Positions 33,600 to 40,562 of a stretch of 64,000 nt of DNA are shown here, piece after piece. Within the stretch, counting starts at the first letter, position 1. Every line of letters starts with the position of its first letter. The notes beneath the pieces were generated by a model. It did not search any database. It worked only from the letters and a program-made list of their open reading frames with translations, and was not told the origin of the DNA. Both the position numbers and the translations under genes were made by a program. Source of the DNA: Chloroflexia bacterium SDU3-3 (GTDB taxonomy: Bacteria > Chloroflexota > Chloroflexia > Chloroflexales > Roseiflexaceae); the NCBI GenBank assembly GCA_009268125.1, contig WBOU01000004.1, positions 212,494 to 276,493 of the forward strand, given 5' to 3'.

Positions 33600-34871
33600 T
33601 CACCCCAGATCCAGCAGCGCCGCCAGCGGCTCCTGCTCCTCGTCGTAGGGGCCGATCACGGCCAGGTGCAGCGCGGCGCTATCCAGCACCCGCCGCCCCA
33701 CCCGCCGCACGTCCTCCAGCGTCACCGCCTCCACCTCGGCCACCACCTGCTCCACCGGGATCACCCGCCCGTAGCGCTGCTGGTGCGAGCCGTTGCGCGA
33801 CGCCACCGACCAAGTGTCCTCCAGCGACAGCAGGATGCCGCCCTTCACCTGCTCCTTCACGCGGCGCAGCTCGGCCTCGGTCACGCCCTGCTGTTTCACC
33901 GCCCGCAGCTCGCGCATGATCGTGGCCAGGCACTCGCCCAGCTTGTCGGGGTCCACGCTGCCATAGATCACCCACTTGCCCGCGTCGTGGTGCTCGCGGC
34001 TGTACGATCCGATGCTGTAGGCCAGACCCAGCTCCTCGCGGATCTCCTGGAACAGGCGCGACGACATGCCGTTGCCCACGATCGTGTCGAAGGCCAGCAG
34101 CGCGCGGCGGTCGGGGTCATCCAGGGCTACGCCGGGCATGGCCAGCGCGAAGTTGCCCTGCTCGCTGTCGTCGGGCTGCATCAGCAGCGCCGGGCCGGGG
34201 CGCGCGGGCGTGCTGGCCACGAAGGCGGGCGCGACCCCCTCGGGCAGCGCGGCGAAGGCCGCCTCCACCGCATCGCGGGCCTGCTCGGCGCGGATGTTGC
34301 CCGCGATCGAGATGATGGTGTTCGCGCGGTTGTAGGTCTCGCGCCACCACGCCACGATAGCATCGCGCGTGATCGCGTGCAGCGACTCCTCGTCGCCTGC
34401 GATATCGCGCCCCAGCGGCTGGTCGCCCCACATGGCCAGATCCAGCAGCACGTGCACCAGATCGGCTGGCGAGTCCTCAGTCTCGGCCAGCTCCTCCAGG
34501 ATGACGCGGCGCTCCTTCTCGATATCCACCGCGTCGAAGCGCGGGCGGATGATCATGTCCGACAGCACATCGAGCGCCACCTGGAAGTGGATGTCGGCCA
34601 CCTTGGCGTAGTACACCGTCGACTCGAAGCCGGTGTAGGCGTCGATCACGCCGCCCACGCCCTCGATCGCATCCGAGATCAGCTTGGGCGTGGGGTAGCC
34701 CTGGCTGCCCTTGAACAGCAGGTGCTCGATAAAGTGCGAGATGCCGCACGTGGGCCGCCGCTCGTGCCCCGAGCCGACGCCCACAAAGCAGCCGACCGAG
34801 ACCGAGTGGGTGTGGGGCAGCTCCTCGACCAGCAGCTGCAGCCCGCCCGAAAGCGTAAATGTATGGTGCAT
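33600..34871 (-). CDS. M16-family zinc metallopeptidase (processing-peptidase-like)
   Basis: The 423-residue protein has the inverted zinc motif HxxEH as H46-F-I-E49-H50 in CGISHFIEHLLFKG, with the distal Glu in EKERRVILEEL. The second half contains the inactive M16 repeat (GLAYSIGSYSREH..., RVKEQVKGGILLSLEDT). Length fits M16B enzymes (mitochondrial processing peptidase beta/YmxG-like), cleaving peptides in a closed chamber. AAGGAG precedes ATG 34871; no signal peptide. First gene of a three-gene operon. Confidence 0.93.
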   Translation of the reverse strand: MHHTFTLSGGLQLLVEELPHTHSVSVGCFVGVGSGHERRPTCGISHFIEHLLFKGSQGYPTPKLISDAIEGVGGVIDAYTGFESTVYYAKVADIHFQVALDVLSDMIIRPRFDAVDIEKERRVILEELAETEDSPADLVHVLLDLAMWGDQPLGRDIAGDEESLHAITRDAIVAWWRETYNRANTIISIAGNIRAEQARDAVEAAFAALPEGVAPAFVASTPARPGPALLMQPDDSEQGNFALAMPGVALDDPDRRALLAFDTIVGNGMSSRLFQEIREELGLAYSIGSYSREHHDAGKWVIYGSVDPDKLGECLATIMRELRAVKQQGVTEAELRRVKEQVKGGILLSLEDTWSVASRNGSHQQRYGRVIPVEQVVAEVEAVTLEDVRRVGRRVLDSAALHLAVIGPYDEEQEPLAALLDLG

Positions 34872-34960
34872 AGTCTCCTTCAGACCTGGAGAGATGTTCG
34901 CAGGTTTTCTGTGTCCGTTCATTATACGCGCTCTTGGCCTGCTCTGGCCGCAAAGATCCT

Positions 34961-34990
34961 TTACCACCAAGACACCAAGGCACCAAGGGT
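34961..34990 (+). repeat. Family-1 unit
   Basis: ACCACCAAGACACCAAGGCA then ccaaggg; a three-turn unit with clear 9-bp period. Confidence 0.8.
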
Positions 34991-35023
34991 ATGAAGGGGA
35001 CGAATATCGCGATGGAAACGCCG

Positions 35024-35145
35024 ACGTAGGGGTGGGTCTCGTGCTCGCCCGCGCTGCGTTGCACATCGCAACGCGCCGTGGGCATCGGATGGGATTGCGA
35101 TGCGGGCGGCGCATGGCGATGGGGCGGACACAAGATCCGCCCCTA
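35024..35145. repeat. Family-2 paired inverted element, copy 3
   Basis: Left end GTAGGGGTGGGTCTCGTGCT (35024) and right end GGGCGGACACAAGATCCGCC plus CCTAC (about 35143), with a short 70-bp core. A family-3 element starts about 65 bp further on. Confidence 0.75.
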
Positions 35146-35210
35146 CATCCGGTGCGGATCATTGCGGGCATCGCCCCTGACCCGACGCCCGCAATGGCTA
35201 CGATGCTTCA

Positions 35211-35434: not shown

Positions 35435-35664
35435 GTGGGCAACCGCTCGGGAGCTGTGGGCAACCGCTCGGGAGCTGTGGGCAACCGCTCGGGAGGCGTG
35501 GGCAACCGCTCGGGAGCTGTGGGCAACTACTCGGGAGCTGTGGGTAACTACTCGGGAGCTGTGGGTAACTACTCGGGAGGCGTGGGCAACCACTCGGGAG
35601 CTGTGGGCAACTGCTCGGGAGCTGTGGGCAACTACTCGGGAGCTGTGGGCAACTACTCGGGAGC
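35435..35664 (-). repeat. 21-bp tandem array, 11 copies (composite element B, part 1)
   Basis: Eleven units of GTGGGCAACCGCTCGGGAGC+T with changes confined to a few positions (AACCGC/AACTAC, GGGC/GGGT, AGCT/AGGC). It is the reverse complement of the 20.05-kb unit, in two-copies-more form. Region 34872-35913 has no recognised gene. Confidence 0.9.
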
Positions 35665-35913: not shown

Positions 35914-36837
35914 TCAGCCCAGCAGATCGGCCAGGGCGGCGGCGGCGATCGGGAAGCGGAAGGCGTAGCCGCTGCCCATCGCCTTGCGCGGCACCACATA
36001 CTGCCCGGTCGTCACCGTATCGGCCACCTCGCCCACCGCCAGGCGCACCGCGAAATCGGGCACCGGCAGCCACGAGGGCCTGCCTACCGTCTCGCCCAGC
36101 GCCTTGGCGAACTCGAAGTTCATCTGGGGGTAGGGCGCGACCGCGTTCAGCGGGCCGGAGAGTTCGGGCGTGTCGATGGCGTGCAGGATGATGCCCACCT
36201 CGTCATCGCGGTGCACCCACGACATCCACTGCGAGCCGGGCAGCAGCGGCCCGCCCACGCCCATGCGGAAGGGCAGCAGCAGCATCTTCAGCGCGCCCTC
36301 GTGCGGGTCGAGCACCACGCCCGAGCGCAGCAGCACCACCCGCGCGCCGTGCTGCTCGGCCTGGCGGGCCTCGGCCTCCCAGCTGATGCAGACCCCGGCC
36401 AAGAAGTCGTCGCCTAGGGGCGACCCCTCATCCACCAGCTCGCTGCCGCGCGGCCCGTAGATGCCCACCGCCGAGGCGTTGACCAGCACGCTGGGCGGCC
36501 TGCTGGCCCGCCCGATCGCGGCCACCACGCTGCGAGTGCCCTGCACGCGGCTCTCGCGGATCTCGCGCTTGAACGCGCTGGACCAGCGCCGTGCGAACAG
36601 CGACGTGGCCCCCAGGTTCACCACCGCATCCGCGCCATCGACCGCCTCGTCGAGCGAGGCGTCGTCGCCGGGCCGCCAGGGCAGGTAGGCCGCCGCGCCC
36701 GGCACCAGGGTGCGCGCCTCGTCGGGGCGGCGCGAGAGCACCACCGCCGCATCGCCGCGCGCCACCAGCGCCCGCACCAGCGACTTGCCAATCAGGCCGG
36801 TCGCGCCGGTCACCACCACCCGCTTTGGTGTGTTCAT
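35914..36837 (-). CDS. TIGR01777-family NAD-dependent epimerase/dehydratase-like protein
   Basis: The 307-residue SDR has the Rossmann motif GATGLIG (11-17), then DAVVNLGATSLFARRWSSAFKREIRESRVQGTRSVV and SAVGIYGPRGSELVDEGSPLGDDFLAGVC, all hallmarks of the YfcH/SulA-like TIGR01777 group, and the C-terminal domain (QWMSWVHRDDEVGIILHAIDTPELSGPLNAVAP). The family's enzyme activity is poorly defined; some members affect cell division. Own terminator follows. Read from ATG 36837. Confidence 0.92.
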   Translation of the reverse strand: MNTPKRVVVTGATGLIGKSLVRALVARGDAAVVLSRRPDEARTLVPGAAAYLPWRPGDDASLDEAVDGADAVVNLGATSLFARRWSSAFKREIRESRVQGTRSVVAAIGRASRPPSVLVNASAVGIYGPRGSELVDEGSPLGDDFLAGVCISWEAEARQAEQHGARVVLLRSGVVLDPHEGALKMLLLPFRMGVGGPLLPGSQWMSWVHRDDEVGIILHAIDTPELSGPLNAVAPYPQMNFEFAKALGETVGRPSWLPVPDFAVRLAVGEVADTVTTGQYVVPRKAMGSGYAFRFPIAAAALADLLG

Positions 36838-38171: not shown

Positions 38172-38924
38172 CTAGTGCTGCGAAAGCTCGGGGTAGGTGG
38201 CGTGCGAGATCCAGCCCCACTGGCTTGTCGGCCAGTACGACACCCATGCCTGCCCGATCACATGGTCGAGCGGCAGCTCGGCCCACTCGCGCGAGTCGCT
38301 TGAGTTCATGCGGTTGTCGCCCATCACCCAGATGGCGTCGGCAGGCACGGTGATCTCTTTGTCGTTGGCGCACACGTCGCTGGGGCGGCAGTCGGTGATA
38401 TCGGTGAGGTACGGCTCGCTGATCATCGTGCCGTTCACGTAGACCTGCCCCCCCTTCACCTGGATTCTATCGCCTGGCAGGCCGATCACCCGCTTGATAT
38501 AATCTTTGCGATAGTCGAGCGGGTACTCGAACACCACAATATCGCCGCGCTGTGGCATGTGGATGGGGTAGACGACCTTCTGGGGAAGGTTGGCGTTGCC
38601 CGGCAGCAGCCGCAGCGGCGCGTTGATATCAAAATGGAAGTAGATGATCTTGTTCACCAAGATGAACTGCCCGGTGTGGAGCGTCGGCTCCATGCTCTGG
38701 CCCTCGATCTTGAAGTTCTGGACCACGCCACGGACAATAAAGAAGACCAGCAGAACGAAGATCGCGGTCTCGAGCAGCTCGCGCACCACGCCGCGCACGC
38801 GCGGGCGGGCGGCAGGCTCGGGCCGCTGGGCTGGGGGCGGATCTTGGTTCCACGTTGGGGCCGCATCATCAAGGCTGTCGGCGCTATTGAGGCCGAGACG
38901 CTGGCGGAGAGGCGTTTCATCCAT
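38172..38924 (-). CDS. lepB: Signal peptidase I
   Basis: The 250-residue protein has a cytoplasmic N-terminal region of about 45 residues, one membrane segment (about 53-70), the catalytic Ser in GQSMEPTL (S77), the general-base Lys in DYIKRVIGLPGDRI (K144) and box E near GDNRMNSSDSREWAELP. This is the single-anchor type common outside proteobacteria. It removes signal peptides from exported proteins. Promoter clearly visible upstream. Confidence 0.95.
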   Translation of the reverse strand: MDETPLRQRLGLNSADSLDDAAPTWNQDPPPAQRPEPAARPRVRGVVRELLETAIFVLLVFFIVRGVVQNFKIEGQSMEPTLHTGQFILVNKIIYFHFDINAPLRLLPGNANLPQKVVYPIHMPQRGDIVVFEYPLDYRKDYIKRVIGLPGDRIQVKGGQVYVNGTMISEPYLTDITDCRPSDVCANDKEITVPADAIWVMGDNRMNSSDSREWAELPLDHVIGQAWVSYWPTSQWGWISHATYPELSQH

Positions 38925-38970
38925 TCTGTTCTTCTCGCAGTTAACGATGAAGGTGGTTCATCACCGCGTC

Positions 38971-39000
38971 ATTATACTCTATCGAATTGCATTTAACCAA
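38971..39000 (-). promoter_or_regulatory. lepB promoter, overlapping the divergent gene's leader
   Basis: On the minus strand TTGGTT (39000-38995), 18-bp spacer and TATAAT (38976-38971). A weaker plus-strand TATACT (38973-38978) overlaps it and could serve the 39012 gene. Confidence 0.65.
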
Positions 39001-39011
39001 CAGGAGCGTCT

Positions 39012-40004
39012 ATGCGTCGTTCAGAGCTGGCCACCCCCATGCCGGATGGGCGGTGGCAGTGTAGTACTTGCCAGTGGCGCTGCGCCCTCGCCGAGGGCGA
39101 GCGCGGACGCTGCCTGCTGCGCGTCGGGGTGGCCGACGGCATCGAGGTGGAAAACGACGGCATGATCAGCGCCGCCGTGGTCGGACCGGTCGAAGACTAC
39201 CGCCTGTGGCACATGCTGCCGGGGGCGCAGGTGTTCGCCCTGGGCGGCTGGGGCTACGCCTTCCCCAACGATCAGCAGCGTGCGCCCTACGCCAGCATCC
39301 CCGACGACCCGGCCAAGCAGCGCCGCCTGCCGCCCGAGAAGGCCGCCCAGTTTGCGCTCGATCGGCTGTGCCGCGGCGTGGTGTGGGCCTTCAACGACCC
39401 CGTGATCTCGCACGAGTTCGTGATGGAGGTGCTGCAGATCAGCCGCGCATCCAGCCGCTTCACCGCGATCGTCACCAATGGCTACGAGACGCTGGAGGCC
39501 ATGGATCGGATCGGCCACTACCTGGATGCGGTGAGCCTGGACCTGCGGGCCTTCGACGACGCGGCCTACACGCGGCTGGCCGGCGTGGGCAGCTGGCGCG
39601 GCATCCTAGATGTGGTGGCCCACGCCAAGCGGCGCTGGGGCTGCCATGTGGAGGTGACAACCCGCATCCACCCCGGCGTGAACGACGCCCCCGAGCAGGT
39701 GGGCGCGATGGCCGCCTGGATCCGCGACACCCTGGGCGCGCACACCGCCTGGCACGTGCTGCCGGGCGACGCGGGCGCGGCGGCGGCCCAGTCGGCGGCG
39801 CGCACCAAGCGGATCGGCCACGACACCGGCCTGAAGTATATCTACGGGGCCGACCCCCAGCAGAACACGCTCTGCCCCTCGTGCGGCAACACGCTGATCG
39901 ACCGCACCAGCGGCCCCTCGCGCATCACCGGGCTGGGCGAGGGCGGCGGCTGCACCCGCTGCGGCCAGGCCGCCGAGATCCGCACCTCGATCTTCAAGCG
40001 CTAG
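39012..40004 (+). CDS. AmmeMemoRadiSam-type radical SAM-like protein lacking the CxxxCxxC cluster motif
   Basis: The 330-residue protein follows the AmmeMemoRadiSam/PflA-like TIM barrel: N-terminal Cys module C17-x2-C20-x3-C24-x9-C34, the barrel strands VVWAFNDPVISHEFVMEVL (EP-type SAM region), FTAIVTNGYETLEAM and LDAVSLDLRAFDDAAYTRLAG, then HVEVTTRIHPGVND, and a C-terminal zinc ribbon (C288, C291, C314, C317). At the place where G-C-N-x-x-C-x-x-C-Q should bind the 4Fe-4S cluster, it reads ALGGWGYAFPNDQQ (76-89) with no Cys. SAM-radical chemistry therefore looks impossible, yet fold and metal modules are kept. CAGGAG precedes ATG 39012; the next gene starts 8 bp after its stop. Confidence 0.8.
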   Translation: MRRSELATPMPDGRWQCSTCQWRCALAEGERGRCLLRVGVADGIEVENDGMISAAVVGPVEDYRLWHMLPGAQVFALGGWGYAFPNDQQRAPYASIPDDPAKQRRLPPEKAAQFALDRLCRGVVWAFNDPVISHEFVMEVLQISRASSRFTAIVTNGYETLEAMDRIGHYLDAVSLDLRAFDDAAYTRLAGVGSWRGILDVVAHAKRRWGCHVEVTTRIHPGVNDAPEQVGAMAAWIRDTLGAHTAWHVLPGDAGAAAAQSAARTKRIGHDTGLKYIYGADPQQNTLCPSCGNTLIDRTSGPSRITGLGEGGGCTRCGQAAEIRTSIFKR

Positions 40005-40012
40005 GAGCTGCC

Positions 40013-40312
40013 ATGATCACGGTCGCCAACCGTATCTTTGTCCACCCCGACCACGCCGAAGCCTTCGAGGAGCGCTTCCGCACCCGGGCGGGCATGGTCG
40101 ACACCATGCCGGGCTTCATCCAGAACCAGGTGCTGCGCCCGCTGGCCGAGGGCGACCCCTACGTGGTGCTGACCTACTGGCAGTCGCGGGCCGACTTCGA
40201 GGCCTGGACCAGCTCGGATGCCTTCCGCCAGGGCCACGCGCGCTCCGGCTCGCTGCCGCGCGAGGCCTTCACCGCGCCCAACAAGCTGGAGATCCACGAG
40301 GTCATTGAGTAG
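40013..40312 (+). CDS. Antibiotic-biosynthesis-monooxygenase fold protein, HmoB/IsdG-like
   Basis: This 99-residue protein matches the dimeric ABM/IsdG ferredoxin-like fold: ANRIFVHPDHAEAFEERFRTRAGMVDTMPGFIQNQVLRP, then PYVVLTYWQSRADFEAWTSSDAFRQGH. The N near the start, the W in TYWQS and the H at the end of the helix are the positions used for heme in IsdG/HmoB heme-degrading enzymes; that activity is inferred. TAGGAGC before ATG 40013 indicates expression with the radical-SAM-like gene. Confidence 0.85.
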   Translation: MITVANRIFVHPDHAEAFEERFRTRAGMVDTMPGFIQNQVLRPLAEGDPYVVLTYWQSRADFEAWTSSDAFRQGHARSGSLPREAFTAPNKLEIHEVIE

Positions 40313-40330: not shown

Positions 40331-40363
40331 AGCCCCACAACACGCGACAACTGCCGGATGACG

Positions 40364-40562
40364 AACGCGGGAGAGCACCTGCCCCAGCGGGGCGGGTCGC
40401 CGAAGGCGCAAGGGCGGGCGGCCAACCCCACCCCGAAACGCTCAGGCCCACGAACTGCGCTCCGACGGCTCTCTGGAGAGCTACGCCCCAGGCGTGGCAC
40501 CGATGGAGTAACCCTCGCGAGAGGGGCATCTCTCAGGTACGTGGACAGAGCAGCAGGCGCAA
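40364..40562 (+). ncRNA. Tandem glycine riboswitch
   Basis: Two glycine aptamers lie in series. First: GGGAGAG (about 40369), core CGCCGAAGGCGCAA (40398-40411), closing GAAACGCTCAGGC (to 40447). Second: GGAGAGC (40475), GCACCGATGGAGTAA (40497-40511), CTCTCAGGTA (40530-40539), GGACAG (40543). These are the conserved segments of the gcvT element. It precedes gcvT and should turn on glycine breakdown when glycine is high. Confidence 0.95.

Follow-up and report, generated by a model that had tools for sequence, protein, structure and literature searches.

A Chloroflexia clade of AmmeMemoRadiSam relatives without cluster cysteines, probably with a non-radical role

We identified, in a window of 64,000 nucleotides from Chloroflexia bacterium SDU3-3 (the whole stretch of DNA that was analysed), a gene for a relative of the AmmeMemoRadiSam radical-SAM enzyme that has lost the cysteines of the cluster motif. 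On balance, we regard its product as a non-radical descendant of this enzyme that probably acts as an adaptor or ligand binder and may carry structural metal in its cysteine modules. The origin from an AmmeMemoRadiSam radical-SAM enzyme is well supported by the sequence comparisons. As the present role of the protein, we infer an adaptor or ligand-binding function to be the most likely one. The features of the locus are listed in Table 1.

Table 1. Features of the locus in window coordinates.
Feature	Position	Strand	Basis
Cys-less AmmeMemoRadiSam radical-SAM relative, 330 aa	39012..40004	+	ORF, TIGR04337, PF04055, 67 genomes with Cys-less orthologue
N-terminal Cys4 module (C17, C20, C24, C34)	39060..39113	+	invariant in Cys-less and Cys-bearing relatives
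Remodelled cluster loop, residues 76-93, ALGGWGYAFPNDQQRAPY	39237..39290	+	alignment; Y82, N86, Q89 at Cys columns
C-terminal zinc-ribbon-like module (C288, C291, C314, C317)	39873..39962	+	invariant in Cys-less clade
ABM/IsdG-HmoB-fold protein, 99 aa, outside the system	40013..40312	+	PF03992, curated models, synteny
lepB (signal peptidase I), divergent, context only	38172..38924	-	ORF, synteny
Tandem glycine riboswitch before gcvT-gcvH-gcvPA-gcvPB, context only	40358..40550	+	RF00504, 47.8 and 43.1 bits

The reading frame of the gene is intact. The best curated match of its product is TIGR04337 (AmmeMemoRadiSam radical-SAM enzyme), which covers residues 10–320 with an E-value of 7e-47 and a score of 160 bits (159 bits in the genome search), below the curated cut-off of 220. 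The match to PF04055 exceeds the gathering score (34.6 vs 29.5 bits); it comprises profile positions 24–158 only and starts past the cluster motif. All eight cysteines of the two terminal modules are present. The C-terminal CxxC...CxxC module is invariant in Cys-bearing sequences too, except for one row at two ribbon positions. The closest solved relative of the protein profile is pyruvate formate-lyase activating enzyme (E 5e-11). A structure predicted from a two-sequence alignment had a pLDDT of 47, too low a confidence to reveal a ligand pocket.

In the alignment with Cys-bearing relatives, the window loop ALGGWGYAFPNDQQ corresponds to GTWGCNFHCQHCQNW; Y82, N86 and Q89 occupy the three cysteine columns and the CX3CX2C motif is absent. 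The sequence-only reading had described an AmmeMemoRadiSam-type protein with intact cysteine modules and without CxxxCxxC. Our analysis bears this out, and the lack of the cluster cysteines is confirmed as real. The residues of the surrounding active site were mapped by alignment only, in a comparison with the columns that are invariant or common among Cys-bearing members. Together with the loop, the Cys-less clade has lost D58, K62, K63 and P64 (the EKKP motif). Q90-N91-W92, N128 of NEP, N156 of TNG, R251, F252 and P254 are also replaced, as is K179 of DLK, mostly by arginine. A few of these signature residues persist in single members; the window protein, for instance, has N128 and N156. Residues that are kept include C17, C20, C24, C34, H67, P130, E135, E214, N224 and the four ribbon cysteines, and H248 is mostly kept. 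New in the Cys-less clade alone, and invariant or nearly so, are A55, R104, R121, Y170 and an S.FK C-terminal tail.

In the radical-SAM superfamily, three cluster cysteines hold the [4Fe-4S] cluster that is needed for the 5'-deoxyadenosyl radical. Because these cysteines are gone and the signature of the SAM site is changed, the usual 5'-deoxyadenosyl radical would not be expected here. With the ligand residues absent, [4Fe-4S] binding at this site and reductive SAM cleavage seem unlikely for the Cys-less protein. An Fe-S cluster might be bound at the N-terminal Cys4 module, in which case the protein may have some redox function.

We searched 158 Chloroflexia genomes (families f1–f14) and a phylum sample of 400 Chloroflexota genomes; genes in relatives were called by simple ORF choice, and the genome search covered Chloroflexota. 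Matches were found in 70 of the 158 Chloroflexia genomes. In 67 of these 70 the orthologue is the Cys-less form, and the remaining three (G038, G055 and G069) yielded Cys-bearing relatives alone. Inspection of the loop in each of the 67 showed no CX3CX2C motif; one locus, L068, has a single cysteine of the three. Since the loss of the motif is common to all 67 genomes, it goes beyond chance, and the sporadic mutation that the sequence-only reading had named as a possible refutation does not apply. Cys-bearing relatives, by comparison, have all three cysteines in 59 of 59 cases examined. The same reading had held that CxxxCxxC in close relatives would speak against it. Inside Chloroflexia the orthologues are without the motif, whereas it does occur in the outgroup from other Chloroflexota classes: the strongest relatives outside Chloroflexia are Cys-bearing, with three cysteines in 40 of 40 loci fetched. 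A separate Cys-bearing AmrS, often with Memo, coexists with the Cys-less gene in several genomes, so the Cys-less protein is not simply its replacement. One contig scan gave one relative (L039, from a Chloroflexales bacterium), the viral contigs searched contained no relatives, and plasmid matches had identities of 25–31%.

In a tree of 113 proteins, a branch with 100/100 support sets the 57 Cys-less rows apart. Their distribution on the tree needs one change only, and 200 of 200 bootstrap trees checked concur. A tree calculated without the loop columns showed the same split between Cys-less and Cys-bearing proteins, so that repeated, independent losses of the cysteines are an unneeded assumption. 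The tree was rooted at its midpoint. Despite this rooting, the natural interpretation is that the cysteines were lost once, as the radical-SAM superfamily as a whole is Cys-bearing. For five close pairs in which the estimator was workable over the whole gene, we obtained dN values of 0.025–0.11 and dS values of 0.64–1.40, i.e. dN/dS of about 0.03–0.08. The loss of the signature, the invariance of the eight other cysteines, the gain of new invariant residues and the low dN/dS together support repurposing of the clade rather than decay. The preference for adaptation over decay, voiced earlier from the single sequence, is supported also by the one Cys-less clade that spans the class. The loop of L068 (genome G087; L068:4971-5984) retains one of the three cysteines (GGWGNNLACRHR vs GTWGCNFHCQHC in the outgroup). 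This locus, which has Memo directly downstream of the gene, is a possible intermediate in the loss.

The gene neighborhoods point to AMMECR1/Memo and, in deep lineages, to a kinase-PP2C-vWA set. AMMECR1 lies directly downstream of the Cys-less gene in all nine genomes of family f3. The AMMECR1 and Memo proteins beside Cys-less genes are closest to each other or to the partners of the Cys-bearing sister group and therefore look inherited. Most members of the nearest Cys-bearing group have AMMECR1 and a gene of Memo or LigB type directly downstream, in many cases as a fusion. One such fusion, of a LigB-type dioxygenase domain to AMMECR1 (L153:3656-4972, minus strand), was seen directly downstream of a Cys-bearing AmrS gene, and Memo-AMMECR1 fusions occur at other Cys-bearing loci. 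A search of the window genome yielded no Memo, AMMECR1 or canonical AmrS, and the Cys-less protein is an orphan there. In all seven deepest loci (L066, L067, L068, L069, L070, L071 and L072, from families f5, f6 and f8), the Cys-less gene is followed by a Ser/Thr kinase with a C-terminal beta-propeller and a PP2C phosphatase, joined in six of the seven by a vWA protein. A kinase-PP2C pair is also present in the window genome (C6:288013-291137), unlinked to the Cys-less gene. Co-occurrence with the kinase is weak on its own, because the kinase is also found in genomes of f10, f11, f13 and f14 without the Cys-less gene. A paper on conflict systems (PMC7159879) reports kinase-PP2C-vWA gene groups in actinobacteria and names, in other vWA-linked systems, radical-SAM domains akin to the Memo-AMMECR1 type. 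Both linkages of the Cys-less gene, to AMMECR1 and to the kinase set, occur in some lineages only and could be a remnant of an older gene order.

The other neighbors serve as context. The lepB side (window 38172-39011) is conserved over most of the class, and the genes downstream of the Cys-less gene have changed. Families f1, f4, f6 and f8 keep the divergent lepB, as do nearly all of f2, part of f3 and one f5 locus. It is not kept at six f3 loci, four f5 loci and one f2 locus; we rejected a functional link to lepB on these grounds, an inherited position being the simpler reading. Downstream, the Cys-less gene is followed by lplA and the gcv genes in f3, by lplA in f4, and by either or both in part of f1. 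In f2 neither is found downstream, yet the Cys-less gene persists. For this reason we rejected a functional connection with lipoate ligase or glycine cleavage, and the arrangement probably reflects gene order. Elsewhere in the window, a tandem array of 11 copies of a 21-bp unit (35435-35664, 92% matches) lies between the ORFs 33600-35171 and 35914-36837.

Immediately downstream of the Cys-less gene in the window, 8 bp past its stop, starts the ABM gene. The sequence-only reading had assigned an IsdG/HmoB-like fold to its product, correctly: PF03992 is matched with E 1.4e-24, and the closest solved chain is TT1380 (1iuj, E 5e-37), followed by YhgC/HmoB. Despite the shared fold with the IsdG/HmoB/HmuQ heme monooxygenases, the protein scores under the curated cut-off of every heme-oxygenase equivalog (64 vs 130 bits for the HmuQ model, 55 vs 119 for PRK13315). 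Its gene, with the Cys-less gene on one side and the glycine-cleavage operon on the other, has the position of AMMECR1-lplA in f3. The expectation that orthologues would have the same downstream gene failed, as the two genes adjoin in the window genome only. The ABM gene is not beside the closest orthologue of the Cys-less gene (L010, 70% identity) within the 413 bp of downstream sequence there. Orthologues of the ABM protein with 67–68% identity are located away from the Cys-less gene in five of 26 family genomes, for example on a different contig in G057 and about 1.8 Mb apart on the same contig in G065. Most of the family genomes searched, several of them with the Cys-less gene, gave no ABM match. 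The ABM gene is a chance neighbor of the Cys-less gene. Since it is unlinked in relatives, the heme reading is unsupported; on synteny we rejected the coupling to heme or tetrapyrroles that had been proposed through this gene, and the genetic partners are instead AMMECR1/Memo and, in deep lineages, the kinase-PP2C-vWA set.

Based on these results we propose the following course of events. The ancestor of much of Chloroflexia would have carried a copy of the gene upstream of Memo and AMMECR1, in an operon that we infer from the present neighbors. As the alignment and the tree show, this copy lost the three [4Fe-4S] cysteines together with much of the active-site signature around them. The barrel sequence, the N-terminal Cys4 module and the zinc ribbon were retained and new conserved residues gained. 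The emptied barrel may then bind a ligand or a partner protein via residues such as H67, R104, R121, Y170, E214, N224 and H248, while the two cysteine modules would hold structural metal. The Cys-less gene was probably inherited together with AMMECR1/Memo, and two lineages still have them side by side. In the deepest lineages it lies next to a kinase-PP2C-vWA signaling set. The wider proposal is that a single conversion in an ancestor of these lineages turned a radical-SAM enzyme of the Memo/AMMECR1 system into a non-radical partner of AMMECR1/Memo or of the Ser/Thr kinase-PP2C-vWA set, with a new conserved site for catalysis or binding. The protein would then be a clade-wide neofunctionalised radical-SAM pseudoenzyme. 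We put this forward tentatively.

Ranked second to the adaptor or ligand role is a new non-radical enzyme, in which the barrel would use its newly invariant residues to catalyze another reaction, perhaps one of the Memo/AMMECR1 pathway. The new invariant polar residues R104, R121 and Y170 would fit such an enzyme, as would the retained H67, H212, E214, N224 and E135 and the strong purifying selection. However, no known catalytic motif was found in the Cys-less protein, and most genomes have no pathway gene adjoining the Cys-less gene. We therefore regard this explanation as rather unlikely. Far less probable is an enzyme that still uses radicals, with the N-terminal Cys4 module providing the SAM-binding cluster. 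Unusual cluster motifs are indeed a feature of other radical-SAM-type enzymes (Dph2, PhnJ and ThiC), and the four N-terminal cysteines are invariant in every member. Cys-bearing relatives, however, have the same four cysteines in addition to the catalytic motif. A cluster with four ligands would have no iron free for SAM, and the signature residues of QNW, NEP, TNG and DLK have changed together with the loop.

A partnership with the ABM protein in heme or tetrapyrrole metabolism is even less probable. The spacing in the window and the HmoB/HmuQ-like character of the ABM gene are what suggest it, and the synteny given above contradicts it. We give least credence to a decaying, pseudogene-like remnant. 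Partner genes are absent in most lineages, the gene is missing from some near-complete relatives (e.g. G051 and the g9 genomes), and one copy has an internal stop (G017, locus L055). The frame is nevertheless intact in the other genomes wherever a contig end does not cut the gene. Together with the selection on the gene, the conservation of the cysteines and of the new residues rules out decay for the clade. Of the ideas in the sequence-only reading, we favor the non-radical scaffold.

Compared with AmrS (TIGR04337), the Cys-less protein shares homology over the full length, the N-terminal Cys4 module, the zinc-ribbon end and, in some lineages, AMMECR1 or Memo as neighbors. It differs by the missing CX3CX2C motif, the largely replaced signature, the score under the cut-off and, in the window genome, the lack of Memo/AMMECR1 partners. 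By profile score, the nearest Cys-bearing sequences are a 'CQW' AmrS group from other Chloroflexota classes (L153-L173, L175), which mostly have a CQW motif and a loop that starts with G.WG. Unlike the Cys-less clade, all of them have the GCNFxCxxCQNW, K-K-P, NEP, TNG and DLK motifs. Pseudo radical-SAM relatives are already catalogued, as the name of TIGR04347 (pseudo_SAM_Halo) shows. It is another subfamily, and its matches in the window genome do not include the window gene. A literature search, which covered few subscription papers, found no paper on the Cys-less Chloroflexia clade.

Memo and AMMECR1 are also present in humans. To our knowledge, the function of the AmmeMemoRadiSam module is unexplained. 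The Cys-less clade is a further, well-resolved case of a radical-SAM protein turned non-radical, with L068 as a possible intermediate. Its members represent a natural separation-of-function experiment, in which the radical chemistry has been removed and the protein kept, in one family together with AMMECR1. In f3, where the neighbor is Cys-less, the role of AMMECR1 should thus not require a radical from the protein of the adjoining gene.
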